From Paraflavitalea soli (GTDB lineage: Bacteria > Bacteroidota > Bacteroidia > Chitinophagales > Chitinophagaceae), in contig NZ_CP032157.1 in assembly GCF_003555545.1 (NCBI RefSeq), positions 62,001-126,000 on the forward strand: DNA of 64,000 bases, given 5' to 3'. A program made the translations under genes and the position numbers. Shown one piece after another: positions 16,122 through 59,600 of the stretch. A model generated the notes under the pieces. That model was not told the DNA's origin and searched no databases. It saw nothing but the letters and a program-made list of their open reading frames with translations. Within the stretch, counting starts at the first letter, position 1, and the number at the start of each line of letters is the position of its first letter.

Positions 16122-16160
16122 GCAACGAGGCAACCAAGCACAGAAGCAACGAGGGAAGGC
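16121..16160. repeat. Period-8 array, five units
   Basis: GGCAACGA (16121), GGCAACCA (16129), AGCACAGA (16137), AGCAACGA (16145) and GGGAAGGC (16153) run in register right after the TonB receptor stop. The first 16 bases are identical to those of the array at 35527. A TTCGACAAGCTC word of the dispersed repeat seen at 21377 and 22349 follows directly at about 16161. Confidence 0.65.
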
Positions 16161-29903: not shown

Positions 29904-29938
29904 AGCTGCGAGCGGTGAGCTACGAGCTGCGAGCGGAA
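29904..29938. repeat. Period-7 array, five units
   Basis: AGCTGCG, AGCGGTG, AGCTACG, AGCTGCG and AGCGGAA follow each other without gaps right after the araB stop. The same words occur at 45959-45986 after an AraC gene. Confidence 0.7.
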
Positions 29939-29993: not shown

Positions 29994-30692
29994 ATGAGTG
30001 CACACAAATATATTCGTGAGGAAGCGTATGAGGCCAATATGCAGCTTCCGGCCCTGGGCCTGGTATTATTCACTTTTGGCAATGTAAGTGCAGTAGACCG
30101 CAAAGCCGGTGTATTTGCCATTAAGCCCAGTGGAGTACCTTATAAAGATCTGTCACCAGACAATATGGTGATCGTTGACTTTGATGCCAAAACGGTGGAA
30201 GGAACGATGCGTCCCTCTTCTGATACTAAAACCCATGCTGTGCTCTACAAGCATTGGGATAAGATCGGCGGCATTGTGCATACGCATTCCACCTATGCCA
30301 CTGCCTGGGCCCAGTCGCAGCGTGATATTCCCATCTTCGGCACTACCCATGCAGACCATAATACAGTAGATATTCCCTGCGCTCCTCCGATGGATGATGC
30401 GATGATAAAGGGAGATTATGAACATGAAACGGGTTTCCAGATCATCAATTGCCTGCAGTCGAAAGGGCTGAGCTATGAGGAGCTGGAAATGGTGCTGGTA
30501 GGCAACCATGCGCCTTTTACCTGGGGTAAAACGGCTGCCAAAGCGGTCTACAACAGTGCAGTACTGGAAAATATTGCGCAGATGGCTTTGCTTACTGAGC
30601 AGATCAATGCGCAGGCGCCGCGGTTGAAGGATGCCTTGATCAAAAAGCATTTTGAAAGAAAGCATGGGCCGGATTCGTATTATGGGCAGTAG
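29994..30692 (+). CDS. araD: L-ribulose-5-phosphate 4-epimerase
   Basis: The 232-residue class II aldolase-fold protein has GLVLFTFGNVSAVDR, KPSGVPY, the zinc ligands His96 and His98 in VHTHSTYATAWAQ, the conserved TTHADHN block and a later histidine in GNHAPFTWG. Length and motifs match AraD, which turns L-ribulose-5-phosphate into D-xylulose-5-phosphate for the pentose phosphate pathway. It follows araB by 96 bp and precedes araA. Confidence 0.96.
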   Translation: MSAHKYIREEAYEANMQLPALGLVLFTFGNVSAVDRKAGVFAIKPSGVPYKDLSPDNMVIVDFDAKTVEGTMRPSSDTKTHAVLYKHWDKIGGIVHTHSTYATAWAQSQRDIPIFGTTHADHNTVDIPCAPPMDDAMIKGDYEHETGFQIINCLQSKGLSYEELEMVLVGNHAPFTWGKTAAKAVYNSAVLENIAQMALLTEQINAQAPRLKDALIKKHFERKHGPDSYYGQ

Positions 30693-30696
30693 GGAC

Positions 30697-30724
30697 GGCA
30701 GTCGGCAATCGGCAGTCGGCAATG
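30697..30724. repeat. Period-7 array, four units
   Basis: GGCAGTC, GGCAATC, GGCAGTC and GGCAATG run in register a few bases after the araD stop. The array is followed by a separate 29-bp repeat. Confidence 0.7.
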
Positions 30725-30780
30725 CGCCCCGCGAAGCGGGACAAGTTTTGCTTCGATAGCGGATCTCTCACTACGCTGCG

Positions 30781-30914: not shown

Positions 30915-32405
30915 ATGATCAATTTAAAGACTTTGGAAGTTTGGTTTGTAACCGGTAGCCAGCATTTGTACGGACCTGAGACCTTGAAACAAGTGGCCGA
31001 AAATGCACAAACTATTGCGAAAGCCCTGGATGCTTCTGCTAAAATACCTGTCACTGTTATTTGGAAGGACACTGTTAAATCGCCGGAAGAAATTTATAAG
31101 ATCTGCCAGGAAGCCAATACAACTCCAAACTGTATCGGTATCATTGCCTGGATGCATACCTTTTCACCCGCCAAGATGTGGATCGGCGGTCTGAAGATAC
31201 TCAACAAGCCTTTATTGCATTTACATACACAGTTCAACCGCGATATTCCCTGGGGAGAGATCGACATGGACTTCATGAACCTCAACCAGAGTGCGCACGG
31301 CGACCGCGAGTTTGGTTTCATCATGACGCGTATGCGCCTCAACCGCAAAGTGGTGGTAGGTCATTGGCAGGATGAAGAAGTATTGGAGCGTATCAATGTA
31401 TGGACAAGGGTAGCTGCCGGCTGGCACGACTGGCAGGGCGCGCGCTTTGTACGTTTTGGTGATAATATGCGCTATGTAGCGGTTACGGACGGCGACAAAG
31501 TGGAAGCTGAAATGAAATTCGGTTTTTCCGTTAACACGCATGGCATTGGCGACCTGGTGAAAGTGATCAATGAGATCGGTGATGGCGCCGTAGACAAACT
31601 GGTGCAGGAATACAATGACCGTTATAAAGTAGCAGATGTACTGAAGAAAGGCGGCAGCAGTTACAACTCCATCCGCGATGCTGCGAGGATTGAACTGGGC
31701 CTGCGCAGCTTCCTGGAGCAAGGTAACTTCAAGGGATTCTCCGATACGTTTGAAGACCTGCATGGCATGGTACAATTGCCGGGTATTGCCGCGCAGCGCC
31801 TGATGGGCAGCGGTTATGGATTTGCCGGTGAGGGTGATTGGAAAACTGCAGCGCTTGTACGGGCCATGAAAGTGATGGGGCAGGGGCTGCCGGGTGGCAA
31901 CTCCTTCATGGAAGATTATACGTATCACTTCAATCCCTCCAATCCGCAGGTACTGGGCGCGCATATGCTGGAGATCTGTGAATCGATTGCTGAAGGGAAG
32001 CCAAGCTGTGAGATACACCCGCTGGGTATTGGCGGCAAAGCCGATCCTGTGCGCCTTGTATTCAACAGTGCACCGGGTAAAGCGCTGAATGCTTCGCTGA
32101 TAGACATGGGCAATCGGTTCAGGATGCTGGTGAATGAAGTGGAAGCGGTGAAGCCGGAGCATGACCTGCCCAAACTGCCTGTAGCAAGGGTATTGTGGAA
32201 GCCATTACCGGATATGAAAACAGCTTGCGCAGCCTGGATACTGGCCGGTGGTGCACACCATACGGGCTATAGCCAGAACCTGACGGCCGAATACCTACAG
32301 GACTTTGCAGAGATTGCCGGGATAGAGTTTGTATTGATCGGTAAGGATACCAACCTGTACCAACTCAAGAATGAACTGCGCTGGAATGAAGTGTATTATA
32401 GGTAA
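30915..32405 (+). CDS. araA: L-arabinose isomerase
   Basis: The 496-residue protein has the AraA N-terminus [37 protein letters not shown], the [13 protein letters not shown] block and C-terminal [14 protein letters not shown]. It converts L-arabinose to L-ribulose in the cytoplasm using a divalent metal. It is the third gene of the araBDA group. Length is standard. A hairpin terminator at 32548-32580 follows. Confidence 0.97.
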
Positions 32406-32411
32406 GAGGAG

Positions 32412-32439
32412 AGAATACAGAATACAGAATACAGAATCC
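32412..32439. repeat. Period-7 array, four units
   Basis: AGAATAC occurs three times in tandem (32412, 32419, 32426), followed by AGAATCC (32433). It starts seven bases after the araA stop. Confidence 0.75.
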
Positions 32440-32547
32440 GGCGACACGCGTTTGTCCTGGGTGTTAAAACAGGAGACCGTAGTTAAAAAGGATCAGTGGA
32501 CAAATGAATTGTTATAAGTACACATTATAATACATATCGATAAGATG

Positions 32548-35503: not shown

Positions 35504-35526
35504 AGGGGGCAAAGATAGGGAATACA

Positions 35527-35576
35527 GGCAACGAGGCAACCAGGCATCAAGGCAAGGAGGCAATGAGACATCGAGG
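35527..35576. repeat. Period-8 array, six units
   Basis: GGCAACGA (35527), GGCAACCA (35535), GGCATCAA (35543), GGCAAGGA (35551), GGCAATGA (35559) and GACATCGA (35567) run in register between the HAD and acyltransferase genes. The first 16 bases are identical to the array at 16121. Confidence 0.75.
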
Positions 35577-35578
35577 GG

Positions 35579-36757
35579 TTAGATGTATTTCCGGGTGGTA
35601 TTAATTTTTCTCAACAGGGATGTGGTGAGCCAGCTTAAAGCAAGCGCGATTATAAACGTGATGCTGAATTTTATCACTGCATGCAATGGTAATGGCAACA
35701 GCAGGTACTGACACCATACCACAAAGATGTAATGCACCAGGTAAATGCCATAGGCATTGGCGGTGAGGGATTGCATGGCTGGTTTGGGTGAAAGAATGCC
35801 CGCTTTAAACATGGAGAGGAAGGCCAGGCAACTGGCCGTACAGGAGGCAGTATACATAGCGAAATACAATAACCAGGCCGGCGGTTCTGCCAGGTGCTTT
35901 GATTGAACCAGGCTGGTGAGTGTATCAGGAACAATGGTGAGTAATACATACATCACCACACATAGAACGGTCCATACGGGCCACTTTAGTTTCAGCACTG
36001 ATGTGTCGGCAAAGAGGCCTTTTCCCAGGTCGATGCTGCCTGCCACGGCTCCCAATATAAAATACCCAAAATAGAGTACTACGCGGCTCAGCTGGAAGTC
36101 GAAGGGATAAAAGCCTGTCCAGGTGCCGGACCCTACTGCCATAGCCAGGGGCACATACAACAGGAAGGTGGCGAGGAAGAAGAATAGGAAGAGCCCGCCG
36201 GGTTTGTTTTGCAGTCCCGATAGCCAGGCGCCTGCTTTGGTGAGCAGTCCACCCACCAGTGGATACAGCAAAGCGAGTAGCAGGTTGAAAGCAAACAATA
36301 CCCAGATGAACCAGGGTGGCCCTACGGGCCATTGCTCGATGGTGAAGAAATCAATAATATAAGCTTTGATATGGTGCTGGTGATGGGCCAGGTAATAAGC
36401 AGGGTAGTAGGCTATCAACATCAATAGGGATACGGCCGCTACAAAAGGAATGAAGAGGCGGTAAAACCTATCGCGCAGGAAAGCTGCTACTCCTTTCTTA
36501 CGCAGGGCAGGCAGCGCAAAAATGCCGCTGATGAAAAACATCAGTGACATGAAGAATACATCATTGAAGTTCTCAAAGATGTCCATACCGATCCACCGGT
36601 GGGTGTCCACTACCGGGTGGGTGGACAGAATATACGCTTCGGGATGAAAGGCGGCGAAAGTGGTATAGGCCAGGGAGGCATGATGGGCTACCACCAGTAC
36701 GGTGAGCGCAGATCGCAGGTAGTCAAGCCATAAGATGCGATTGGGTGTAGCCCCCAT
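35579..36757 (-). CDS. Acyltransferase family 3 membrane protein
   Basis: The 392-residue protein has about ten membrane segments and starts with RILWLDYLRSALTVLVVAHHASLAY, the acyltransferase-3 opening with the R/D-x-x-R-x-x-x-x-x-x-V-V-x-x-H pattern. FFMSLMFFISGIFALPALRKKG and RFYRLFIPF are also typical. Family members move acyl groups (acetyl, succinyl) onto glycans at the inner membrane, similar to OpgC. The acceptor is unknown. It is divergent from the GH39 gene across 177 bp. Confidence 0.88.
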   Translation of the reverse strand: MGATPNRILWLDYLRSALTVLVVAHHASLAYTTFAAFHPEAYILSTHPVVDTHRWIGMDIFENFNDVFFMSLMFFISGIFALPALRKKGVAAFLRDRFYRLFIPFVAAVSLLMLIAYYPAYYLAHHQHHIKAYIIDFFTIEQWPVGPPWFIWVLFAFNLLLALLYPLVGGLLTKAGAWLSGLQNKPGGLFLFFFLATFLLYVPLAMAVGSGTWTGFYPFDFQLSRVVLYFGYFILGAVAGSIDLGKGLFADTSVLKLKWPVWTVLCVVMYVLLTIVPDTLTSLVQSKHLAEPPAWLLYFAMYTASCTASCLAFLSMFKAGILSPKPAMQSLTANAYGIYLVHYIFVVWCQYLLLPLPLHAVIKFSITFIIALALSWLTTSLLRKINTTRKYI

Positions 36758-36934: not shown

Positions 36935-38620
36935 ATGAAACATCTTGCCATAGCAGCTTCCTGCCTCGCAGTTTTATTTGCAACTCCCTCGTCTGCACAA
37001 AATGACCCGGTGGTAATACGGGCCGATCTGACCAAAACTACCGGTGATATGAAGCCGGTATGGGCCTGGTTTGGGTACGATGAGCCCAACTATACTTACA
37101 TGAAGGATGGAAAGAAATTGTTGTCGGAGTTGGCTGCCTTGAGCCCGGTACCGGTGTATGTGCGGGCACACAACCTGCTCACCACGGGTGATGGAACAGC
37201 GGCCTTAAAATGGGGCTCTACCAACGCCTATACGGAAGATGCACAGGGCAACCCGGTATACAACTGGCGTATTACAGACAGTATTTTTGATACGTATGTG
37301 CAGCGGGGCATGAAGCCGCTGGCGCAATTTGGTTTTATGCCCGAGGCATTGTCATCCAAACCGCAGCCTTATCGCCATTATTGGAAGCCCGGAAATCCTT
37401 ACAATGAAATATATACGGGCTGGGCTTATCCTCCGAATGATTATAAAAAATGGGGCGCGCTGGTATACGAATGGGTAAAGCATTGTGTGGCGCGCTATGG
37501 AAAGAAAGAGGTGGAAAGCTGGTATTGGGAATTGTGGAATGAGCCCAATATCAGTTACTGGAAAGGTACGGTGCAGGAGTTTTGCAAATTGTATGATTAC
37601 ACGGCGGATGCGGTGAAGCGTGCATTGCCAACCGCCCGGCTCGGCGGACCGGATGCCACAGGCCCTTCCTGGGATGTAGCAGCCAAATTTCTCAAGACCT
37701 TTATTCAACATTGTACCAGCGATACGAATTATGTAACGGGCAAGATCGGTACGCCGCTTGACTTTATTGCTTTTCATGCCAAGGGCGCACCCAGGGTAGT
37801 GGATGGCCATGTGCGAATGGGCATAAGCAATCAACTGCGCGATATATCGGATGGGTTTAAGCTGGTAGCTTCTATCGCTGCTGTGAAGAACCTGCCGATC
37901 GTGATCGGTGAGTCGGACCCCGAAGGATGTGCTGCCTGTGGTATGGCTACCAACCCGGAGAATGCCTATCGCAATGGTACGATGTATTCTTCCTATACAG
38001 CGGCTTCTTTTGCCCGCAAGTATTTACTGGCTGATCATTTTGGCGTTAATTTCCTGGGAGCGGTATCCTGGTCTTTTGAATTTGAGAACCAGCCCTGGTT
38101 TTATGGGTTCCGCGACCTGGCCACCAATGGGGTTGATAAGCCCGTGCTGAATGTATTTCGCATGTTTGGTATGATGAAGGGAAAGCGGGTAGCGGTAACG
38201 GGCAACCGGATGATGCCTTTGATGAGCATCCGTGATTCGGGGGTACGAAAACCGGCCACGGATATTGGCGGGTTGGCGGCCAGTAATAAAAAGAGCGCTA
38301 CGATGATGGTGTGGAATTACCACGATGACGACCTGGCAGGCCAACCTGAACAGGTGCAGGTGGTAATGGAAGGGGTGTCCGCAAAAAAAGTAACTGTTAC
38401 GCAGTATGTAGTAGATAAGCACCACAGTAACTCGTATGAGGTGTGGAAGCAAATGGGATCACCTCAGCAGCCGACACCTGAACAGATCGCTCAGCTGGAA
38501 AAAGCCGGGCAGCTTGAACAGGCCAGTGTAGAACGGAATGTGGTGGTGCAGGATGGGAAGCTGACTGTTCCGATCACGATTGAAAGACAAGGGGTGGTGT
38601 TGTTGAAAGTAGAATGGTAA
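36935..38620 (+). CDS. GH39-family glycoside hydrolase (beta-xylosidase-like)
   Basis: The 561-residue secreted protein has a signal peptide (MKHLAIAASCLAVLFATPSSA) and a TIM barrel with the clan GH-A acid/base Glu203 in ELWNEPNISYW and the nucleophile Glu326 in VIGESDPEG. GYDEPNYTYM and the following VYVRAHNLLTTGDG match GH39. Known GH39 activities include beta-xylosidase, alpha-L-iduronidase and, in newer groups, alpha-L-arabinofuranosidase-type or beta-glycosidase activities. The position near the arabinan locus suggests plant cell-wall side chains. The C-terminal 170 residues form a beta sandwich typical of the family. Confidence 0.85.
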   Translation: MKHLAIAASCLAVLFATPSSAQNDPVVIRADLTKTTGDMKPVWAWFGYDEPNYTYMKDGKKLLSELAALSPVPVYVRAHNLLTTGDGTAALKWGSTNAYTEDAQGNPVYNWRITDSIFDTYVQRGMKPLAQFGFMPEALSSKPQPYRHYWKPGNPYNEIYTGWAYPPNDYKKWGALVYEWVKHCVARYGKKEVESWYWELWNEPNISYWKGTVQEFCKLYDYTADAVKRALPTARLGGPDATGPSWDVAAKFLKTFIQHCTSDTNYVTGKIGTPLDFIAFHAKGAPRVVDGHVRMGISNQLRDISDGFKLVASIAAVKNLPIVIGESDPEGCAACGMATNPENAYRNGTMYSSYTAASFARKYLLADHFGVNFLGAVSWSFEFENQPWFYGFRDLATNGVDKPVLNVFRMFGMMKGKRVAVTGNRMMPLMSIRDSGVRKPATDIGGLAASNKKSATMMVWNYHDDDLAGQPEQVQVVMEGVSAKKVTVTQYVVDKHHSNSYEVWKQMGSPQQPTPEQIAQLEKAGQLEQASVERNVVVQDGKLTVPITIERQGVVLLKVEW

Positions 38621-38786
38621 AGTGTTTCGTGTTTTGAGTTCCGGGTGTCGGGTTGCTACCGCGGTTAGGGTTGCTGTCTGGCATTGTGCATACTTGATAT
38701 TTTTGCATTTTTTTCTAAGCAAAGATGATATTAATTGCGTTGCTGCACCTAAAGAACCCGTAACGCTACACCCGAAACCCGTAACA
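38621..38786. repeat. Spacer element copy 1 (about 165 bp)
   Basis: It starts right after the GH39 stop and fills the convergent spacer. Arm A (CGGGTTGCTACCGCG) is at 38649-38663 and arm B (CTAAAGAACCCG) at 38749-38760, giving a 112-bp core. Both outer flanks are made of G/T-rich or C/A-rich heptads (for example GTTCCGG, GTGTCGG on the left and ACACCCG, AAACCCG on the right), so the ends are inverted relative to each other. Confidence 0.7.
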
Positions 38787-38789
38787 GTA

Positions 38790-40304
38790 TTATTCTCCCA
38801 GCCAGGAACTTACGATCTTCTTCTGTAACGATGTAGGGTTGGGGAGGCGTGTTATTTTATAAGTTGATGTGTCCATGCTCAATCCGGCATAGCCAAGGTA
38901 TTTGGTATAATCCAGCTCTTTGGTCGTATAGACATAATCAAACAACTCCGTCAATGGATCACCGGCGATTTTAGTGATCACCTGGCGCAATTCCTCTTCT
39001 GTAAATCCTCTTTGCTTCTTTTGGTAGTATTCCTTGTACAGGGTGCGCATCACATCATCCAGTGACTTTTTATTGTTTGTCTTTTGCCGGATGGTGAAGT
39101 CAAACAACATGCCCACCACCGGGCCTTTGTCATAGTAGGAAATGGTCTTGTTCTCTTTGTCATCCTTGCGGCCAAAAGGCCCGTCGGACCAGGTCTCATA
39201 ACTGGCCTGCTGCAGGGATTGATAACGTTTGCCGATCCCTTTCTCAAAGGCCTTGATATTGCCGGTGAAAGCATTGAGCAGGTCCTCTTCCGTACTGAGA
39301 CCGGCGCGTTTAACGATGAGGTACTCATAATAAACGGAAAGTCCTTCTGATACCCACAATTGGTTGGTACGGCTGCCATTGTCATAATCGAAAGGTCCTA
39401 ACTCGATAGGGCGGATACGCTTTACATTGTAATGATGGAAATATTCATGGGCCAGGAAGTTGAGGGCCCTGATGCGGGAGGCAGTATCATTCTGCGACTC
39501 ACCGCTGAAGGAGATCGCGGTAGAGTTCAGTTGCTCAATGCCACCCATGCCCCTGGGGCTGATAGACAGGAATGTATAATGCTTGTAAGGAATATCACCT
39601 ATGAGATCAGTGGCGGTGGTGATAATCTTTTTGAGGTCATTCATGAATGCCTGCCTGTCAAAATCACCCAGCTCATACCCGATGAATCTGTGAGAGATGC
39701 CCCGCACGGTAAAAGCCGGCAGCTCTTCGAGGTTGCCGATCAAAAAAGGACTATCGTACAGCACATCAAAATTGGACGCGGTATACGTGAATGATCTACC
39801 TGGTACTGAATCAAGCCCGGTAGCTACATTGTTCCAACCGGTATAGGGTTTGATCTGCACGGTTGCCGGGAGGTTGATCCTGCCCGCAGGGTGTATAAAT
39901 ACACCTGCCGGCCTGATGAAGGCGCGCTCTTCATCTATATAGGGAGTACCCACAAATAAGCGGACGGTCTTTACATCATAACTGATGGTGAAGGCTGCCT
40001 GCTTCTGATGGGATATATGCCAGGTATTGCCCGCGCTCATATGCCAGGGGATGGTATCGCCGGCGGCATTCTTTACGGTGAAATGCTCTACGTTCTTAGC
40101 ATAGTCCATGCGCTGGTAATAGCCGGGTGTCCATACGGGCATTTTGAAATCTGTTGCCGTATCTTTTATGGCGGAACAGCGCAGCTCCACATGAAAATAA
40201 TGATTGGCGGGCTGCTCCATAGAAACCGTGAAGTGGAGCTGTTGGGCTGTAGCTATTAAGTTGATTAGGCATATGCTAAGCGTGAGGGTTATTCTCCTGG
40301 TCAT
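38790..40304 (-). CDS. M61-family metallopeptidase, exported
   Basis: The 504-residue protein has a signal peptide (about residues 1-20) and an M61 glycyl-aminopeptidase-type layout: an N-terminal beta domain (FKMPVWTPGYYQRMDYAKNV) and a thermolysin-like catalytic domain with the zinc motif HEYFHHYN (His about residue 286) followed by the third-ligand region WVSEGLSVYYEYL. M61 enzymes are usually about 600 residues with a C-terminal PDZ domain; here the protein ends soon after the catalytic helices and no PDZ domain is seen. The gene is bounded by element copies on both sides and belongs to a minus-strand group of three peptidase-type genes. Confidence 0.88.
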   Translation of the reverse strand: MTRRITLTLSICLINLIATAQQLHFTVSMEQPANHYFHVELRCSAIKDTATDFKMPVWTPGYYQRMDYAKNVEHFTVKNAAGDTIPWHMSAGNTWHISHQKQAAFTISYDVKTVRLFVGTPYIDEERAFIRPAGVFIHPAGRINLPATVQIKPYTGWNNVATGLDSVPGRSFTYTASNFDVLYDSPFLIGNLEELPAFTVRGISHRFIGYELGDFDRQAFMNDLKKIITTATDLIGDIPYKHYTFLSISPRGMGGIEQLNSTAISFSGESQNDTASRIRALNFLAHEYFHHYNVKRIRPIELGPFDYDNGSRTNQLWVSEGLSVYYEYLIVKRAGLSTEEDLLNAFTGNIKAFEKGIGKRYQSLQQASYETWSDGPFGRKDDKENKTISYYDKGPVVGMLFDFTIRQKTNNKKSLDDVMRTLYKEYYQKKQRGFTEEELRQVITKIAGDPLTELFDYVYTTKELDYTKYLGYAGLSMDTSTYKITRLPNPTSLQKKIVSSWLGE

Positions 40305-40475
40305 AAGTGTTTCGTGTTTTGAGTGTCGGGTTTCGGGTCTTTAGCTGCAACAATGTAATTAATTATTGTCTTTGCTGAGTGCAACGGTCTAAAAGGACCG
40401 GGTTGCCACCATTCAAAGCTGTATGCTCAAAACGCGGTAGCAACCCGAAATGCTACACCCGAAATCCGGAACTGT
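40305..40475. repeat. Spacer element copy 2 (about 170 bp, inverted)
   Basis: It fills the entire spacer between the S9 stop and the M61 start codon. Arm B is inverted at 40334-40344 (CGGGTCTTTAG) and arm A inverted at 40433-40447 (CGCGGTAGCAACCCG), core 114 bp. The word AGCAAAGA lies 35 bp inside arm B here (inverted, 40369) and in copy 1 (38718), and TTAATT lies at the matching place. Heptads flank both ends. Confidence 0.7.
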
Positions 40476-40477
40476 AG

Positions 40478-42763
40478 TTACTTTATTTCGCCGGCATTCC
40501 TGTCGGGCGGATCAACACCCAGCAATTGTTGTACAAAGAAATCTCTTTTCTTCTTACGGCCATAAGGACCACCATCGCTATGACCCATGCCTGGCACGGT
40601 AAGCAGATCAAACATTTTATTGGATTTGATCAGTGCATCGGCCAGGCGGTAAGTAGATTCAGGTGGTACATTGGTATCGGCTTCACCTACGATGAGCAAC
40701 AGCTTTCCTTGTAGCTTGCTTGCATTGGTAATATTGGATTGCTCTTCGTAATGCTTGCCAATGGGATAACCCATCCATTGTTCGTTCCACCATTGCTTGT
40801 CTACGCGGTTGTCATGACAACCGCAGGCAGATACTGCCGCTTTATAAAACTCGGGGTGAAACAACAGCGCCCCGGTAGAATTTTGCCCGCCGGCAGAAGT
40901 GCCATATACGCCTACCCGTGTAGTATCTACATAGGGATATTTTTCGGCCAGGGCTTTGATCCATAAAATGCGATCAGGCAGGCCTGCATCAGCGAGGTTT
41001 TGCCAGCACACATCATGGAAGGCCTTGGAGCGGTTGGCCGTGCCCATACCATCACACTGGATGACAATGAAGCCCAGCTCGGCCATGCTCTGCATTTCAC
41101 CATGTGTCATAAAGTTTTTGGGTACAAAGGCATCCTGTGGACCGGCATAGATATTTTCAATGACAGGGTATCGCTTGTTGGGATCAAAATGGCGGGGTCT
41201 GCATACTACTCCCCAGATATCTGTTTTGCCATCCCTGGCTTTGGCGACAAATACTTCGGGAAGCCGTACACCCAGGGCCAGGTAAGCAGAAATATCTGCT
41301 TTCTCCAGTTCCATCACGGGTTTATTATCGGCTGCACGCACCAGGGAAGTTATGGGCGCTATATCAGGCGCCGAATAAGTATCGGTGAAATACTTTCTGT
41401 CGGGCGAAAAATTGACGGTATGGTTACCGGCAGCGGGGGTAAGGGATACCAGTTTTTTACCATCAAAGCCAATGCGGTAGAAATGTATATTGTAGGGATC
41501 TTCACCTGCCTGCATACCGCTGGCGCGGAACCAGATCTCCTTTTTCTTTTCATCCACACTGTCAATCTCCCGTACTACCCAATTGCCGGCGGTGATCGCA
41601 TTTTTGACAACACCTTTCCCGGCATCTACCAGGTACAGGTGGCGCCATCCGTCTTTTTCAGAGCTCCAGATAATTTCATCGGTTTCTGGCAGGTAATGCG
41701 TAAATATGCGTTGTTCATAGATGAAGGTGCTGGTTTGCTCATCCACAATATTGCGCGTATTGCCGGTTTCGCTGTCTACTTCAATGATACGGAAACGCTG
41801 ATGACCACGGTCTGCCTTTTCATAGGTGAAGAAGCGGCTGTCTTTTTTCCAGCGTATATAGGGTGAGCCCAGGAAATCATATTTCTCGGTATTGATCTTA
41901 ACCGCTTTTTGGGCTGCGATGTTGAACGTATACATTTCATAGCTGGTAAATTCATCCCCGGGCTGTGCATAGCGTTGTGAGCGCAGCTGACCACGCATGG
42001 TATTGGGCTGTGAGGTGAGGATATAATACACCTCTTTCTGCTCACGGGGATCGATCTTATACCCAATGGCATATTTGCTATCGGGGCTCCACACCAGCTG
42101 GCCATAGGGCTTTTCTTTGGTGCCATCGGTTGTAAACCGGATGGCATCCTGACTGGCAGCAGGTCTTATATAAACGTTATTGTCCCTGATGAATGATACC
42201 CATTGTTTGTCGGGCGAGAGGCTGTCCCTTCTGCCATCACGGTCCCAGCGTGGGCGTCTGCGGGGGTTGGGCATATTGGCTGCCAGCGTATCGGGAGCTG
42301 CTGTACTGGTACAGGTTTGTTTGAGTACATCATATTGCCACCACTTGTCCTGGTGCCGGAAGGTGATCTGTTTGGCCTTGTTGTCAAATACCAGGGCATT
42401 AATGCCCAGCCTTTTGGCGGTGACGGCTTTGCCGGAGGCCTGGCCCAGGGCCGCAGCGAGCTGAGCGTGGTCGAAGGCTGGTGCTTTTTTGCCGGCTACC
42501 GCATCTACATAAATATATTCTGTAGTGCTGTCCTTAAGGTTGTTGCGGTACCAGAAGCCTTTGTTATCGGCCTGCCAGTTGGCTTGTACAGTTGTTTTAA
42601 AAACTGAATTGCGGGCCAGGCTGTCCAGTTCAGCTGCCTCACGGTAGCGCTGCATGATCTCCTCATGGCCGGGCCTGTAATCGGAAGGCTTGTTGGGTTG
42701 AGCATTGGTCAACAAGGCGCCTAACAGGCACGATGAGACAATCAATGATTTGTAATATGTCAT
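40478..42763 (-). CDS. S9-family prolyl oligopeptidase (dipeptidyl peptidase IV type)
   Basis: The 761-residue protein has a signal peptide, an N-terminal beta-propeller (about residues 60-500, with DKQWVSFIRDNNVYIRP and repeated W-S-P-D-type turns) and a C-terminal alpha/beta hydrolase domain. The nucleophile is about Ser622 in GVYGTSAGGQ; the aspartate is in LIVGEADTNVPPES and the histidine in VPGMGHSDGG. DPP IV-type enzymes of Bacteroidota cut dipeptides from peptides in the periplasm. The gene sits between two spacer-element copies. Confidence 0.9.
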   Translation of the reverse strand: MTYYKSLIVSSCLLGALLTNAQPNKPSDYRPGHEEIMQRYREAAELDSLARNSVFKTTVQANWQADNKGFWYRNNLKDSTTEYIYVDAVAGKKAPAFDHAQLAAALGQASGKAVTAKRLGINALVFDNKAKQITFRHQDKWWQYDVLKQTCTSTAAPDTLAANMPNPRRRPRWDRDGRRDSLSPDKQWVSFIRDNNVYIRPAASQDAIRFTTDGTKEKPYGQLVWSPDSKYAIGYKIDPREQKEVYYILTSQPNTMRGQLRSQRYAQPGDEFTSYEMYTFNIAAQKAVKINTEKYDFLGSPYIRWKKDSRFFTYEKADRGHQRFRIIEVDSETGNTRNIVDEQTSTFIYEQRIFTHYLPETDEIIWSSEKDGWRHLYLVDAGKGVVKNAITAGNWVVREIDSVDEKKKEIWFRASGMQAGEDPYNIHFYRIGFDGKKLVSLTPAAGNHTVNFSPDRKYFTDTYSAPDIAPITSLVRAADNKPVMELEKADISAYLALGVRLPEVFVAKARDGKTDIWGVVCRPRHFDPNKRYPVIENIYAGPQDAFVPKNFMTHGEMQSMAELGFIVIQCDGMGTANRSKAFHDVCWQNLADAGLPDRILWIKALAEKYPYVDTTRVGVYGTSAGGQNSTGALLFHPEFYKAAVSACGCHDNRVDKQWWNEQWMGYPIGKHYEEQSNITNASKLQGKLLLIVGEADTNVPPESTYRLADALIKSNKMFDLLTVPGMGHSDGGPYGRKKKRDFFVQQLLGVDPPDRNAGEIK

Positions 42764-42783
42764 TGTTAAAATATTTGGTCGGG

Positions 42784-42951
42784 TAATGTTCCGGGTTCCG
42801 GGTTTGGAGTTTCGGGTTGCTGCCGCGATCTGAGTTTACGGCATTGTTTTGGCGAGCTTGGTTCACAAAACCGCCGCAAGGCAGCAATACTAATCGTTCA
42901 TTTATGCCGCTACACCTAAAGAACCCGAAACTCTACACTCCAAACACGAAA
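42784..42951. repeat. Spacer element copy 3 (about 165 bp)
   Basis: It fills the spacer between the DUF885 stop and the S9 start. Arm A (CGGGTTGCTGCCGCG) is at 42813-42827 and arm B (CTAAAGAACCCG) at 42916-42927, core 115 bp, in the same orientation as copy 1. The left flank reads as heptads GTTCCGG, GTTCCGG, GTTTGGA, GTTTCGG. The central part has diverged from the other copies. Confidence 0.7.
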
Positions 42952-42952
42952 T

Positions 42953-44680
42953 TTATTTGGTATAAAAACGCCAGTTGGTTTTAAAGTCTTTGGAGAGTGA
43001 TTGATTGGTGAGAATGGCGCGCACCATTTCTACCGGCATGGCATTTTCCTGCAATACGGCATCGTGGTATTGTTTGTAGGTCATCTTACCTCCATCTACC
43101 AATTCCTTTTTCATGGCATAGAACTGTAATCCGCCGATCATATAGGCCAGTTGGTACAATGGACCATAGCCACCGGTAAAGGAGCGGCGTACTTCTCCTT
43201 CAGCATTGGCGCGTTCATGTCCTACACGGTCTACCAGGAAGTCAATACATTGCTGCGGTGTCCATTTGCCCAGGTGGTAATTCAGCGAGAAGATGATGCG
43301 GGCGCAGCGGTGCATGCGCCAGAACAACATACCAATACGGTCTTCAGGAGATTGGGGGAATTTGAGGTCCCACAAGATCATCTCCCAGTACAATGCCCAG
43401 CCTTCTGTCCAGAAGGGCGTATTGAAATTGCGATATGCTTTGTAGCGGTTATTCATAAAACCCTGCAGGTGATGGCCGGCGATCAACTCATGGTGTACCG
43501 TAGCGCGGGAGAAATGCGGGTTGTTGCCCCGCATGCTCATCAGTTTGTCTTCTTCTGCCATGGTATTGGTAGGGTAGGAGATAATGAGCATTTCTCCGCC
43601 GAGGAAGAATGGGCTAACCAGCTGCCGTTGGGGACTCATCATACTCATGCGCCAGGTCTCTTCTGCTATTGGCGGGATGGTGACCAGTTTATTCTTTTTC
43701 AGGAAGTCGATGGACTCATTGTAGAGTTTCATGATGGCTTCCGGTTGTTTGCCGGGTGGAACATAAGAATTCTTTACTTTCTCGATGGCTTTTTTCCAAT
43801 CATCGCCAAAGCCCATATCGCGGGAGGCTTTCAGCATTTCTGCATCGCACCAGGCAAATTCTTTATTGGCGATGTCTACCAGTTCTTCCGGTGTGTAAGG
43901 GATCATTTCAGCCTGCAGCTGGCGCACCAGTTCTTTCTGCCCAATGGGATAACCCACAATGCCACTGCCATCATCTTTACCGCCGGGGGCTGACTTTTCT
44001 TTTTGCTGCCATGTTTTGGCATAATCACCCAATGCTGTTTCGAGGCGCTTCAGGGGCTCTGGTATCCACCAGGTATAAGCCGGATCATAACCGGTATAAA
44101 AATCATTCACACTTTTAACAGCAGCTTGTAATCCCCGGATAATAAAGCCAGCCCGGCGGCTGAGGTTGATCTCCATGGCGGACTCTTTATCCAGTTTTTT
44201 AGCGGTACTGTTGATCTCAATGGCGAGGGCGTTCATAGTAGCTGCCAGCTTTTGGGCATCCTGTTGGGTGCCGCGGCGACGGATCCTTTCTATTTCATAT
44301 ATCTTTTCGGCAAAGGTGAACCACGGGCTAAGCTGGCTAAATTCCTGTTCTTCTTCCTGCAGCAGGCGCAGTTGCTCGTCCATATTCCTTTTAAACAACA
44401 GGTAATCAACTTTAGCCCCGGTAGAGAGGGATTCGAATTTCAGTTGCTGCAGCTGTTTTAAATAGTCCGTTTGCAATTGTTGTAAGCGTTGGCGACGGTC
44501 GGGAGAGCTTTCCACAGCATAAAAGCGGCTAAGGCTTCCGCGGTCAGCATCATATTGTACCATAATGTTGTTGACCTCACTGTTTTGCTGATACAGGGAC
44601 GTTGTTTGCGACCAACCTGGCAGTACAGCGATCGCCATACAAAGGAGGAAAATAAGTTTTAACCGGAGGGCTTGGCTCAT
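42953..44680 (-). CDS. DUF885-family protein, probable metallopeptidase
   Basis: The 575-residue protein has a signal peptide (about residues 8-24) and is mostly helical. The block HHELIAGHHLQGFMNNRY near residue 395 is the DUF885 signature, an H-E-x-x-x-G-H variant of the zinc-peptidase helix, with FWTEGWALYWEMI about 25 residues on supplying a further glutamate. DUF885 proteins are related to carboxypeptidase-like M32/M3 folds and are generally thought to be peptidases. It is the first gene of the minus-strand group of three peptidase-type genes, suggesting periplasmic peptide breakdown. Confidence 0.85.
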   Translation of the reverse strand: MSQALRLKLIFLLCMAIAVLPGWSQTTSLYQQNSEVNNIMVQYDADRGSLSRFYAVESSPDRRQRLQQLQTDYLKQLQQLKFESLSTGAKVDYLLFKRNMDEQLRLLQEEEQEFSQLSPWFTFAEKIYEIERIRRRGTQQDAQKLAATMNALAIEINSTAKKLDKESAMEINLSRRAGFIIRGLQAAVKSVNDFYTGYDPAYTWWIPEPLKRLETALGDYAKTWQQKEKSAPGGKDDGSGIVGYPIGQKELVRQLQAEMIPYTPEELVDIANKEFAWCDAEMLKASRDMGFGDDWKKAIEKVKNSYVPPGKQPEAIMKLYNESIDFLKKNKLVTIPPIAEETWRMSMMSPQRQLVSPFFLGGEMLIISYPTNTMAEEDKLMSMRGNNPHFSRATVHHELIAGHHLQGFMNNRYKAYRNFNTPFWTEGWALYWEMILWDLKFPQSPEDRIGMLFWRMHRCARIIFSLNYHLGKWTPQQCIDFLVDRVGHERANAEGEVRRSFTGGYGPLYQLAYMIGGLQFYAMKKELVDGGKMTYKQYHDAVLQENAMPVEMVRAILTNQSLSKDFKTNWRFYTK

Positions 44681-45954: not shown

Positions 45955-46364
45955 GAAAAGCTGTGAGCTACGAGCTGCGAGCGAAAGACAATTACACGGT
46001 ATTTCCGGTCAATCACTCAATAAACCCTGCCATTTGCGCAAAGTGTGGTCTTAATCGCACTGGCAGGTATAATTTTATCGCGGCTACCAGGAAAAGCCGG
46101 ATGAAGCAAACATGCACAAGCTGGACAGGCAGCTTACGGGATGCCTGTCGCAGCTTTGCCACATAATTGGAACCAGGCGTATACCAAAAGGGTTGCTGTA
46201 TATTCGGTAACCCTTATTCTTTTCTTACAGGTTTCCACTTAGACGTTAATAATTTACGTATTTTCGACACTGGTAAGACGGGCTCTGTTGAGATACAGGA
46301 ATGAGTGCGCTCTCCAGGCAACTTATTGTAAATTAATTAACCGCTTACTTTCAGGATCCCCGCC
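45955..46364. other. Spacer between AraC and sensor kinase genes
   Basis: It starts with a period-7 array (45959-45986). CCTGCC (46026) and GGCAGG (46062) form a weak long-loop hairpin followed by TATAATTTT, a possible terminator. A 67-codon frame at 45963-46166 begins inside the array and is rejected. No gene was found. Confidence 0.45.
45959..45986. repeat. Period-7 array, four units
   Basis: AGCTGTG, AGCTACG, AGCTGCG and AGCGAAA follow the AraC stop. They share words with the array at 29904 after araB, 16 kb away. Confidence 0.7.
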
Positions 46365-53698: not shown

Positions 53699-56600
53699 AT
53701 GAGAAAAAAGAATCCAACGTTCCCTGTAAAAGCTATGCGTCATCCTGTGAGGTTCCTGCTGCCTTTAATAGTGGGATTGTTGATGAGCATGGGCGTTGTG
53801 GCTGCTACTTTTCCTGTTACGAATACCAATGATGCCGGTCCCGGCTCTTTGCGGCAGGCTATCCTGGATGTGAATGCAGCGGGGGCAGGGCCGCATAATA
53901 TTGTATTTAATGTGTATGGGCAGGTCACTATCCTTTCTTCGCTGCCCGCGATCACCAAAGCAGGTGTGACCATTGATGGACAGAATAAGATCACCATCAA
54001 TTCAAACGGGACCGACCAGATCATCAATCCCTTTGATATCCGGGCAAACAATATTACTGTTCGCAACTTTACGCTGACGAATAACGGCGATATCAATGTG
54101 ATTGTCCGGGCCAATACGACCGGTGTAGTGGTGGAAGGGATCTCCTCCAGCAGTACTACCGGTAATCTCCTGAATACGCTGGTCTATGTGGATGGGGCAT
54201 CTACCAATCTTACTCTTCGCAATTTACGGTCCACCGATCTGCAAGGCTGTGGCGGGACTTATTATGGCAGGGGAATCTTATTTATCGGGGGCATGCAAAC
54301 CAACCTGGTAATAGACAGCATAAACCTGAATACGCAAGGGAATACGAGAGGCTGCGAGGGTATCTCGTTCCGTGATGCGGCCATTAACGGACTAACCCTT
54401 ACCAATACCAATATCAGTGGTTTTCAGAATGGGATTATACTGGATAATACCGGTGGTCCGGTGGAGACCGCTAATAATATCTTATTACGCAATGTTACCC
54501 TCGATTCTTTGACCACGGGGGTGTCGCTCGGGTTTTACTCAGATTTTGTAAATACCAATATCCAGATCAAAAATACCGTCATTGACCTGAATACGATCGG
54601 CGCTGATGATGATGGCGATTATCCCATCCGCTTCGACAATACCACCAATGGCGTTACGATCGATACGGTACGCCTTAATGAAAGCGATATTTATTTTATA
54701 TGGTTTAATGGGGCAGCCAGCAATATCTCCATTAACCATGCGGTGATGGAGAATACCATACCCGGCCTGTATGGTGGCTCCCAGTTTATTCGTTTTGAAA
54801 GCACGGCTGGCAATGTCAATATCAGGAATACGATACTGAACGGAGATAAGCCCGGCAATGCAGATGATGCAGACTATGGGTTATTCTTTATTGGCAATAC
54901 AACAGATATTACGCTCGACAGCCTTACCATTAATGAATTTGATATAGATGGTATATATGTTGCAGGGGCCAATACCAATTTCCAGCTCACCAATTCAACC
55001 TTTACCAATAATTTCGATGGGATCGAATTCTACAATAATGTAGCCCGCAGCAATGTAGATATTGTAAGTTCTACTTTCAAAGGAATGGCTGGCGGGCGTA
55101 GTGGTATTGTGGCCAATGTGGCCAATGCTGTGTCGGACATTGATCTTACTGGTGATACGGTTTACAATAGCGTCAACCATGGTATATGGCTGTATGGCGG
55201 GTCGGCAGTTACCGACGTGGGCATTACCGGTTGCGTTGTGCATGATAACGGTGGTGCAGGTATTTATATAGATCAGCCCGATAAAGTATTGATCTCACAA
55301 AATTCGGTCTATAATAATACCGGGGCAGGGATTGACCTGTTCAATGCAGGCAATTGTGGGTATGAAGGAGCCAATCGACCGGTGCTCGTTTCCTCCACAG
55401 CGCTGGGGGCAGGCCAATACCAGTTGGTGATCAGCCTGCCGGCTATTGTGCCGGCTGGTTATACCGTGGATATTTATGCCAATGATCCCGCCACTTCAGC
55501 TACCAGTGGTCAGTATTTCGTGACCAGCTTAACAGGACTGAACAGCGGTAACAATACGCGGACGGTTACTTATAATACCGGTCCCGGCGCTACCGGGGCC
55601 GGTTTCTGGACAGCTACCTTACGTATTCCCGCCAATAATTGCGGCACTTCGGAATTTAGTGATAAACTGTACATCAGTACACAGGGACCCGGTAATGTAG
55701 ATGCCAATGTGAAGCTTTGGCTGCGGGCAGATGCCGGGCTTACCAATAATACCACCGCGCCTGCTACCGAAGGACAGGTGGTGAACCGATGGACCAACTT
55801 CAGTCAGGGTGGCGCTCCTGATGGTGGGACCTCGACCGGTACCGTTACCTATAAAAAAGCAGGGATCAACTTCAATCCGGCGGGTTATTTTTCCGGTGCG
55901 GCGATGCAGGCTGCCGGTAATGGCGCCACCTGGTTGAACAGTCCGAATGTTACCTCCTTTGCCGTATTCAATAAATATACGACTGCTGCAGACGGCAGCC
56001 GGGTGTACGTAGTATATGATAATGCCTCCGGTGGTTACGATTACAATACCAATGGAGAATCGATCATCTTTGGCAGGAATGGCGCCAATATCCAAACCCA
56101 CCGCAACGGATGGGAAAACCCGGTTGTACCCGGCGCGCTCGGAAGATCCGGTCTCTTTACATCGCTTACCAATGCGAGCGCCCATGCTATGTATTATAAT
56201 GGGGCCAGCCTCGGCACAGCAGCTTATAATAAGGGCAGTTTCAATGCGGAGCAGTGGTTCGTGGGCGGTGGTTATAATGCCGGCTGGTGTTGTACTACCA
56301 CAGCCGATATAGCGGAAGTGGTTACTTTCGACCGCGAACTGACCGTGGCAGAAATCGACCGGGTACATGCTTACCTCGCTATTAAATACGGCATTAGCCT
56401 GCCCGGTAATTATATAGCTTCCGATGGAACTACGATCCACTGGAATGCTGCTGCCAATGCCGGCTACCTGAAACATATTACAGGTATCGGTCGTGATGAC
56501 AGTACCTTCCTGTACCAGAAACAATCGCTGAGTGCCGATACGGGTATGGTTACCCTGGCGTTGGGCAGCACCATCGCCGAAGACAATGCTTCCAATGCAG

Positions 56601-59600
56601 CTACCATTGGTACCAATAGATCCTTCCTGGTATTTGGTGACAATGGCGCTGCAGCTACCTATACCACGGCAGTGACCGCTGCGTTTGCGAACCAGCGTAC
56701 GGCAAGGGTATGGAAAGTACAGAAGACCAATTGGACTGATCAGAATATCACTATAAAAGTAAATGGGGCAGGGGCCAGCAATTACCTGCTCATCAGTACC
56801 GATCCTTCCTTTGCCACCATCAGCCAGGAACTGGTGTTGAGTGGTACCGGTACGATTACCATTAACTCATCGTTGCTGGCCAATGGTGTCTATTTCTCTA
56901 TCGGCGCCAGCATCAAAGGCCCTGGCAATGTAACGGCCGGTGTTGCTTTGTGGCTGCGTGCCGATGACGGCAGTTCCACCGGCGCACAGTGGGGCGATTT
57001 CAGCGGCAGGGGCAACGGCGCGGCACAGAACGAAACGGCACGGCAGGCAACTGTATTACCGGTGGGCCTGAACTTCAACCCGATGCTGAAATTCGACGGC
57101 ATCAATGATTACCTGACTGCGCCCAGTTTGTTTACATCAACGGGCACCAATAATATACAGGTATACGCCATCGCTGCAACCGATAATATTCAGAACCAGG
57201 ACCTGTTTGCAGAGCTGGTTTCCAACGGCCAGCATGTTCATGCCCATGTACCCTGGAGTGATGGTCAAGTCTATTGGGATGCTCCTTATGGCTACCGCGC
57301 GCAGGGGGCCTGGGGCGGCACTGTAGGTGCTCCTTATCTCTGGAGTTTCCTGCGTTCCCCATCAACCATGAGTGTCAACAGGAACAGGATCGTGGTAGGT
57401 ACCTATACAGCAGCCATGAACAATATTCCTGGATCGAATAATCCTTTCTATGTGGGTGGCATTACGCCTACAACGCAGGCTTTCAACGGTAAAATTGCCG
57501 AGCTGATCGTATACAACAATTCAGCAGCTACATCCGCTACACAACGCCAGCAGATAGAATCCTACCTGGCCCTAAAATATGGCCTCACCATCCCGGCCGA
57601 TTACCTGGCCAGTGACGGTACTACCAAATACTGGGATGCGACTGCCAATGCGGCTTATTCCAAACATATTACGGGTATTGGCCGGGATAGCCTGTCTGCC
57701 TTATTACAAAAACAATCGATCAGTGCCGATACGGGTTATATTACCATGGCATTGGGCAGCGCCATTGTTGCCAGCAATGCAGCGAATGCCGGCAGTATTT
57801 CAAATGACAGGTCCTTCTTTGTAACAGGTGATAATGGTGCGGCAAAAACGTATGCTGTAACTGTAACGGGCCTTGCCGGTGTAAATGTAGCGCTGGCCCG
57901 TACCTGGAAAGTGCAGAAAACGAACTGGACCGATCAATCCATAACTATAAGTACAGATACCGGACTGGCAGCGCCCCAGTTTATCATCATCAGTACCGAT
58001 GCAACATTTGGTGCAGGGGACCTCGTATTGCCGCTCACCAATCGCAGTATCACCTTAAATACTGGTCAGCTTCCCAATGGCGCTTACTTTACTTTTGCCA
58101 ACGGGTTAAAAGCGCCCGGAAATGTCACTGCCGGTATTGCTGCCTGGTGGAGGGCTGATTTTGATGCTGCGGCTGCCCGGTGGAGCGATTACAGCGGCAA
58201 TGGTAAAACACTTACACAACTTAATGTGGCCCAGCAACCAGAACTGCTGCCGGTTAACATCAACTATCAACCCGCTTTAAAATTCGGGACGGTAGACGTT
58301 ATGAGTACTGCCTCGTTGTTTGGCACTGCTTCTATCGATAATATTGCGGTATTTGCCGTAACTGCTGCCGATGGAGCAGGCTCCCAGGGCACAGGTAGTG
58401 GCCTGTTTGCTGAATATGTAAGCAATGGCGAACGTGTTGCTGCCTGGGCACCGTATGGTAATGGCCATGTTTACTTTTATCCGCCTTTAAATTGGGCCGT
58501 AAATACCACCGCACTCCCCACACCGCCGGTTGCCTATGCCAACCCACGGTACAACTTATTTGGTTTCACCAAAAACCCTTCACAGCTCAATATCTATTTG
58601 AACAATACCAATGTGGGTACTACCAATGGTACATTCACCGGCATTACTGGTACTAACCAGGGTTTCTCTTTGGGCGTGTTCCATTTTGCTGATTACTTCA
58701 ATGGCCGCATTGCAGAATTTGTAGTGTACAATAACTCTGCTGCCATGACAGCTGCCGATCGCCTGAAAATACAATCTTACCTCGCATTGAAATATGGTAT
58801 CACCATGAGCCCGGCGGCACCAGTAAATTACCTGGCCAGCGACGGTACTACCAATATGTGGACGGCTGCTGACAACACGGGTTATGGAAAACGCATTACC
58901 GGTATCGGCCGAGACGATTCCAGCACTTTGTATCAAAAACAATCCGTGAGTATGGATACAGGTGTTGTGGCCATTGCAGTAGGTAGCACTGTGGCTGTTT
59001 CCAATGCAGCCAACACCGGTACCATCAATACGAATAAATCCTTCCTCGTGTTTAGCGATAACGGTGCGTCTACCAGGTACGAAACATCGGTGAATGGTCT
59101 CACTGGGGTGAACAATCGCATGACACGCATCTTTAAAGTGGACAAGACCAACTGGGCGGATCAGAATATCACTTTAAAAGTGTATGGCGGTAATGCACAA
59201 ACCTACTTACTGGTAAGTGCTGATGCCAGCTTTGGTGCAGGGGATGCTGCCTATGTGATGAATGCAGAAGGTGCTGTTACACTCAATACCAGTAACCTGC
59301 CTGATGGCGTTTACTTCACCTTTGCGACAGATATTAAAGGCCCCAATGGGGTGAATAAAGGCATTAACTTCTGGCTGCGTGCGGATGATGGCAATACCAG
59401 CGGGGCGGCCTGGAAGGATTATGCGGGTTATGGCCATCAGGCTTTGCAGGCAGTGGTGGCAGGTCAGCCTGTTACTGATGCAAAGGCCATCAACTTCAAC
59501 TATGGTCTGAAGTTCGATGGTACCGATGATTTCCTTGACATCAATACTACCAGGTTACATCCTGATAGCTCCACTATTTTTGTGGCGGCCAGTGGATTGA

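Follow-up and report, generated by a model that had tools for sequence, protein, structure and literature searches.

A candidate dispersed hairpin element with facing four-heptad arms in Paraflavitalea soli

Three neighbouring intergenic gaps in the genome of Paraflavitalea soli hold copies of what we read, with a probability of about one half, as a dispersed non-coding hairpin element with facing arms of four heptads each, spread passively in trans and kept behind stop codons. At the level of sequence, the family is established by the four heptads in each arm, the conserved ends termed A and B, a predicted folding above that of shuffled sequences, adjacency to stop codons, and presence or absence at the same site among congeners. 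The window is the whole stretch of 64,000 nucleotides that was analysed, bases 62001-126000 of the single contig of 8.44 Mb that makes up this genome (G000); the congeners are referred to as G001-G004. An earlier note, made from the letters of the window alone, had described a spacer element of 165 bp. Beyond that description, the heptads proved to be the defining part, four to an arm, in an architecture common to other heptad sequences.

Three copies and their neighbouring genes

Copy 1 spans positions 38624-38785 of the window, copy 2 spans 40309-40472 and copy 3 spans 42788-42952, with copy 2 inverted relative to the other two. The heptad scan resolved the left arm of copy 1 (38624..38651, forward strand) into GTTTCGT, GTTTTGA, GTTCCGG and GTGTCGG; it is followed by end A, GTTGCTACCGCG (38652..38663, forward). 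End B, CACCTAAAGAAC (38746..38757, forward), leads into the right arm (38758..38785, reverse), with the four inverted heptads GTTACGG, GTTTCGG, GTGTAGC and GTTACGG. The left arm of copy 2 is on the B side (40309..40336, forward; GTTTCGT, GTTTTGA, GTGTCGG, GTTTCGG), its ends and core are inverted (40337..40444, reverse), and its right arm is on the A side (40445..40472, reverse; GTTCCGG, ATTTCGG, GTGTAGC, ATTTCGG). Copy 3 has a left arm (42788..42815, forward; GTTCCGG, GTTCCGG, GTTTGGA, GTTTCGG), then end A, core and end B (42816..42924, forward), and a right arm (42925..42952, reverse; ATTTCGT, GTTTGGA, GTGTAGA, GTTTCGG). The outer ends had been described as heptads inverted between left and right, and they are indeed four phased heptads in each arm.

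The genes around the copies, whose boundaries are ORF calls and not annotation, turn their stops to the elements at every copy. A GH39-like gene (36935..38620, forward) ends 3 bp upstream of copy 1, and a peptidase M61 gene (38790..40304, reverse) has its stop towards copy 1 and its start towards copy 2. A DPP IV / S9 peptidase gene (40478..42763, reverse) likewise has its stop towards copy 2 and its start towards copy 3, while the stop of a DUF885 gene (42953..44680, reverse) adjoins copy 3. Pairwise local alignments of the three copies scored 50, 40.5 and 56.5, whereas none of the 300 mononucleotide shuffles made for each pair exceeded 16.5; this upholds the proposal of the earlier note that the gaps contain one element, inverted in the middle. 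A search of Rfam with window positions 38000-43500 gave a sole match at E = 0.87, its 14.9 bits falling far short of the gathering score of 224.5, and thus no curated RNA family.

Architecture and variation

The element opens with four degenerate heptads in phase (GTTTNGN) and end A (GTTGCTRCCGCG), continues through a variable core to end B (CACCTAAAGAAC) and closes with four inverted heptads, so that the heptad arms form imperfect terminal inverted repeats. The core is poorly conserved, and the family is therefore set by its arms and ends. The 165-bp element of the first description is real in its copies and their places, but it is not a sequence family of that length. The loci that entered the pair lists and the counts of anatomy, placement, folding, pairing, duplication, cores and terminators were mostly chosen for having matches, and represent a non-random sample.

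Exactly four heptads are present in 77 of the 92 typed arms, counted after poor outer heptads had been trimmed by a score rule. The loci fetched around matches contain 64 facing pairs. Both ends could be typed in 46 of them, as 22 AB, 20 BA, 2 AA and 2 BB. The two BB pairs were discarded as artefacts, one (L016) being a parsing error and the other (L164) joining arrays from different families; the AA pairs, L158 and L191, look real. Between the arrays lie 21-181 bp, mostly 40-130 (first list, 41 pairs). Within the heptad, positions 1, 2 and 6 are nearly fixed; variation falls on positions 5 and 7 and, by the per-rank counts, is greatest in heptads 2 and 3. Among the 40 G-type elements, GTTTCGG occupies the innermost place in 31 B arms and 18 A arms. 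An A-subtype carries A in place of G at heptad position 1 in both arms and at the junctions.

Folding and pairing of the arms

The copies fold in prediction, as the earlier note had suggested examining: the mean z is -3.5 against dinucleotide shuffles, and z lies below -2 in 36 of 44 complete elements. In the minimum-free-energy fold, only 21 of these 44 keep their inner heptads in register, taken as 5 or more of the 7 pairs. The matching of the arms was examined by comparing A arms with the B arms of other elements, in the 41 elements that remained of the 64 pairs after removal of 18 with untyped ends, 4 AA or BB pairs and 1 duplicate.

The middle heptads match at 8.83 of 14 positions within an element versus 9.27 of 14 between elements (P = 0.008, 41 elements), with the focus on the middle heptads picked after the data had been seen. 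Across all elements the deficit is carried by heptad 2 (P = 0.011) more than by heptad 3 (P = 0.12). The genomes G000 and G004, each taken alone, give P = 0.046 and P = 0.020. For the G-type subset, middle-heptad matching was lower than in any of 20,000 permutations. There, position 5 matches in 14.5% versus an expected 31.4% (P = 0.00015) and position 7 in 14.5% versus 26.6% (P = 0.008). Identical heptads at rank 2 or rank 3 were not encountered in any element, against expectations of 2.2 and 1.0 (P = 0.033). Swapping the two middle heptads only gave 384 versus 416 matches, with 25 elements lower and 7 higher; permutation of all four heptads within elements had no effect (P = 0.48). Position 1 matches above expectation over all elements (P = 0.00015) and not within the G-type, an excess due to the G/A subtype.

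Arms that match throughout are ruled out, as the middle heptads avoid matches. Statistically, the data support arms that pair in register, with outer and innermost heptads that mostly match and with mismatches retained at positions 5 and 7 of heptads 2 and 3. They likewise support the resulting hairpin, an imperfect stem of about 31 bp with regularly spaced interruptions.

Distribution of the family

Further copies, on which the element idea of the earlier note depended, are present: a search with copy 1 returned 51 matches in the 8.44 Mb of G000 at E <= 10, including those of the window itself, most of which span one end only. The end-A pattern gave 37 matches in G000 at up to 1 mismatch (7 for a reversed-pattern control), and the end-B pattern 17 at up to 2 mismatches (control 0). 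Heptads are missing beside several of the 37 end-A matches, for example at L045, L046 and L055-L058. Degenerate repeats of 11-12 nt, of GGTCTCGATAA and TCCTC types, were seen beside solo heptad ends at L021, L039 and L054.

Sequence models of both ends, trained on G000 copies only, were then applied to whole genomes. The end-A model at E <= 0.1, with 150 candidates scored per genome, matched 145 arms in G000, 94 in G002, 123 in G004 and 1 each in G001 and G003; these numbers are arms, not elements, because the model picks up B arms too. At least 49 of its G000 matches extend beyond position 33 into end A, among the matches listed, and matches of any kind, several of them weak, occur in 17 of 39 genomes. 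The end-B model at E <= 0.001 gave 61 matches in G000, 45 in G002 and 85 in G004, and none in G001, G003, G008, G010, G013 or G022. In two genomes of other families, G149 and G291, it gave 8 and 15, nearly all of which, among the matches listed, reach no further than position 32 and stay within the heptads. The family is present in two of the four congeners (G002, G004) and essentially absent from the other two (G001, G003).

Further away, a contig scan for the ends returned nine loci, of which six belong to Niastella sp. BIN41. Of the remaining three, L286 in Spirosoma lacks an array where it matches and is apparently a chance find. The other two, L287 (Saprospiraceae) and L289 (Bacteroidales), show heptads and then the end-A motif, both of which the scan pattern itself demanded. 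In the phylum sample, 11 of 296 genomes, G000 counted, have a match at E <= 1e-4; those outside G000 stop, among the matches listed, at model positions 27-35, and therefore demonstrate heptads and not end A. Titles and the openings of abstracts revealed no published description of this element family, with most of the subscription literature outside the scope of that search.

Placement beside stop codons

Of 59 classed elements from three genomes, 56 occupy spacers, in line with the preference that the earlier note proposed to test: 36 are flanked by tandem genes, 11 by convergent and 9 by divergent ones, and the remaining 3 are located within an ORF call. Background gaps of 100-600 bp in a G000 sample (n = 125) comprise 82 tandem, 12 convergent and 31 divergent ones. 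Edges that face a stop are within 20 bp of it in 51 of 58 cases (median -1), and edges that face a start are within 20 bp of that codon in 14 of 54 (median 38), which bears out the abutment on gene ends. An attempt at replication-strand bias met a GC skew in the samples too irregular for placement of the origin.

Such closeness to stop codons is the first argument for the main rival explanation, in which the hairpins are RNA structures under selection at the 3' ends of mRNAs, where they protect, process or terminate transcripts, and owe their place to selection, not to insertion. We regard it as unlikely, though a serious contender, and it may hold in addition to passive spread. Together with the strong predicted folding, it draws on the gap classes, since elements of the three genomes occupy convergent gaps in 11 of 56 cases versus 12 of 125 in the background, and divergent gaps in 9 of 56 versus 31 of 125. 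A terminator-like hairpin in G003 at the place equivalent to copy 1 and the persistence of some orthologous elements point the same way. The same 9 elements between divergent genes nevertheless speak against it, as does the stop being faced by either end (A in 32 cases, B in 21, untyped in 5) and the family being dispensed with by two congeners. The elements do not have the build of intrinsic terminators, a GC stem followed by a T-run: only 6 of the 58 cores contain such a hairpin, against a mean of 0.4 after shuffling, and heptad-free gaps of G000 are no poorer in it, with 37 of 184 tandem and 15 of 46 convergent ones.

Site history and mobility

The site of copy 2 is without an element in G001, G003 and G004, and that of copy 3 in all of G001-G004, so that the empty sites anticipated in the earlier note exist. 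At the site of copy 1, the hairpin of G003 just mentioned is found, and in G001 the neighbouring gene differs. In the G004 gap that matches copy 1 (L337), another repeat, CTTGGTTCGTGTCCC, occurs two times together with a short inverted partner. Elements outside the sites of the window are partly old, being kept at orthologous sites across about 80% identity: five orthologous-site groups, with flank identities of about 73-85%, show elements that are shared, reversed or missing. Because the comparison loci were chosen for holding elements, they do not yield a rate of sharing. Elements that persist at old sites can be explained as readily by maintained function as by old insertions. One orthologous site carries opposite A/B orders in G000 and G004; inversion of the core by recombination was considered and dropped, as independent insertion accounts equally well for this site.

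Bacterial MITEs are short, non-coding and intergenic, with inverted termini, and the G000 family resembles them in all of these respects. No target-site duplication was found in 45 elements, and the stretches that were read showed neither an autonomous copy nor a parent transposon with matching ends. Near-identical copies amount to a single pair, L154/L155, whose immediate flanks are nearly alike too. Of the four same-contig core pairs with the greatest similarity, three are at most 50 kb apart, and the overall test of neighbour similarity was not significant (P = 0.07 and 0.13); local spread of copies is suggestive, without significance, and was not adopted.

The palindromic REP/BIME elements moved by a Y1 (RAYT) transposase offer a further model. 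They are extragenic, often paired and present in many copies, as is the G000 family (PMC3733652; see also PMC2817692 and PMC6006769), and REP sequences, as far as the available text of PMC3733652 describes them, have no internal heptad periodicity. Y1 genes of this type are in all five same-genus genomes and were not found in G010 and G022, where 100-kb samples are free of heptads; one such gene in G002 is followed, some 130 bp on, by an end-A array (L205). Other Y1 loci in the genus have no GTTTCGG-type array nearby. The family-less G001 and G003 also have Y1 genes, and the 9 heptad runs in 134 kb of sequence flanking Y1 genes in mixed genomes correspond to about the rate of a heptad-bearing genome, with no clear excess. 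RAYT as the driver was rejected on these two grounds, and we consider this explanation very improbable. Of the mobile MITE- or REP-like element first proposed, the non-coding, dispersed, multi-copy character, the intergenic place and the absence from matching sites in relatives have stood; mobility after the manner of either class found no support.

Relation to other heptad repeats

A scan free of any consensus, based on 7-nt autocorrelation and detecting arrays from 28 bp (a lower size limit set by the method), showed that lag 7 stands far above lags 4-13, with 48 and 35 arrays per Mb in two 400-kb samples of G000, 70 in G008 and 180 in G013 (100 kb each). No lag-7 array was found in samples of G003 (200 kb) or of G010 and G022 (100 kb each), and the single one in 200 kb of G001 is a run of N; for the GTTTCGG family, absence was also assessed by the whole-genome models. 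When the threshold is relaxed, the rates become 95 (G000), 150 (G008) and 320 (G013) per Mb versus 0-15 in G001, G003, G010 and G022, and the runs are mostly outside ORFs (31 of 38, 10 of 15 and 29 of 32, respectively).

Further heptad families, often with inverted partners, are present in G000 and in two other genera. Without a consensus, inverted partners outnumber direct ones by 10 to 1 in G000, 1 to 0 in G008 and 8 to 0 in G013, where two of the eight pairs reuse an arm of another; a looser partner test gave 26 versus 5 of 80, 5 versus 0 of 15 and 20 versus 1 of 32. Besides GTTTCGG, the G000 heptads include AGCTCGN, AGAATAC, GCCGAYT and TTAGCTN, and G013 and G008 have different ones. Arrays of all families lie within 25 bp of a stop codon in 12 of 23, 18 of 36 and 13 of 31 cases in G000 and G013, against 8, 7 and 5 in one random placement each; those of G008 have no such tendency (6 of 12, versus 6 at random placement).

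The window holds further heptad arrays at 29904-29937, 30691-30729, 32398-32446 and 45959-45986, of AGCTNCG (twice, 93% alike over 28 nt), GCARTCG and AGAATAC types. Degenerate octad arrays of period 8, AGGCAACN and variants, in a heptad-like style, occur at 16112-16157 and 35518-35579. Coding-like repeats about 1.2 kb apart at 56362-63873 probably belong to a single large repetitive protein. In other Bacteroidota (L299 and L304 in G116, L293 and L303 in G144), perfect or near-perfect arrays of at least 10 heptads, GTTTAGG and GTTTCGG, were seen; the GTTTAGG arrays we take to be the plant-type telomere repeat in another reading frame.

Arrays of this kind can be read as products of slippage, with a polymerase prone to duplicate 7-nt units so that arrays arise anew in spacers. 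According to the accessible text, many bacterial genomes have heptads as their commonest long simple repeat, or have them in excess (PMC4679880, PMC4692102), and long near-perfect heptad arrays are found elsewhere in the phylum and once in G013 (L274). Slippage is nonetheless improbable as the source of the G000 family in view of the predominance of exactly four units, the inverted partners, the ends A and B conserved in many copies, and the near absence from two congeners. The TAACTGA repeats, mostly intergenic and near-invariant direct heptads, are like this family mostly intergenic; they differ in place, mostly just upstream of start codons, and are without paired arms, with one inverted case in the part of the source available (PMC4679880).

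The closest known system is the GGGAATC or GGGANTN heptad repeats of Xanthomonas, whose four units have been connected with G-quadruplexes (Rehm et al. 2015, PMC4692102). In the accessible portion of that paper, they share with the G000 family the preference for four units, the variable positions 5 and 7, and inverted pairs near stop codons. The G000 family differs in its other sequence, mostly unable to form a G-quadruplex, in its conserved ends A and B inside the arms, and in the several heptad families per genome. Arm matching, examined in the G000 family, supports retained mismatches there. The same unit number and a similar architecture would favour G-quadruplex arrays, as put forward for Xanthomonas and Nostoc. 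Four GGG tracts are found in only 3 of 100 arms, so this explanation cannot cover the family, and the AGCTCGN and AGAATAC families lack G-runs to make one; it is largely refuted here, and we give it scarcely any credence.

Implications

The dispersed hairpin element that we favour would spread as passive copies through an activity acting in trans. This activity may recognise the interrupted hairpin, in single-stranded DNA or as a cruciform, and not one sequence, which would explain several heptad sequences with one architecture in one genome. The elements would be retained mainly just behind stop codons, where they may do least harm, and some may replace a 3'-end hairpin or terminator which relatives have there. 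The sharp presence and absence between congeners makes a search for a responsible gene feasible.

The heptads of Xanthomonas, in fours and often in facing pairs, had posed a puzzle that was linked to G-quadruplexes in the available text of PMC4692102. In the present family, the same count, variable positions, pairing and location occur with sequences that mostly cannot form G-quadruplexes, and with several heptads per genome, which makes the architecture separable from the sequence. It is possible, if rather less than probable, that facing four-heptad arms are a sequence-independent bacterial architecture, maintained by a trans-acting system that reads a hairpin of about three turns with mismatches every seven bases. 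The repeats of P. soli and its congeners, of other Chitinophagaceae and of Xanthomonas and Nostoc would then be instances of it, and the four-unit rule of Xanthomonas would come from structure and not from G-quadruplexes.
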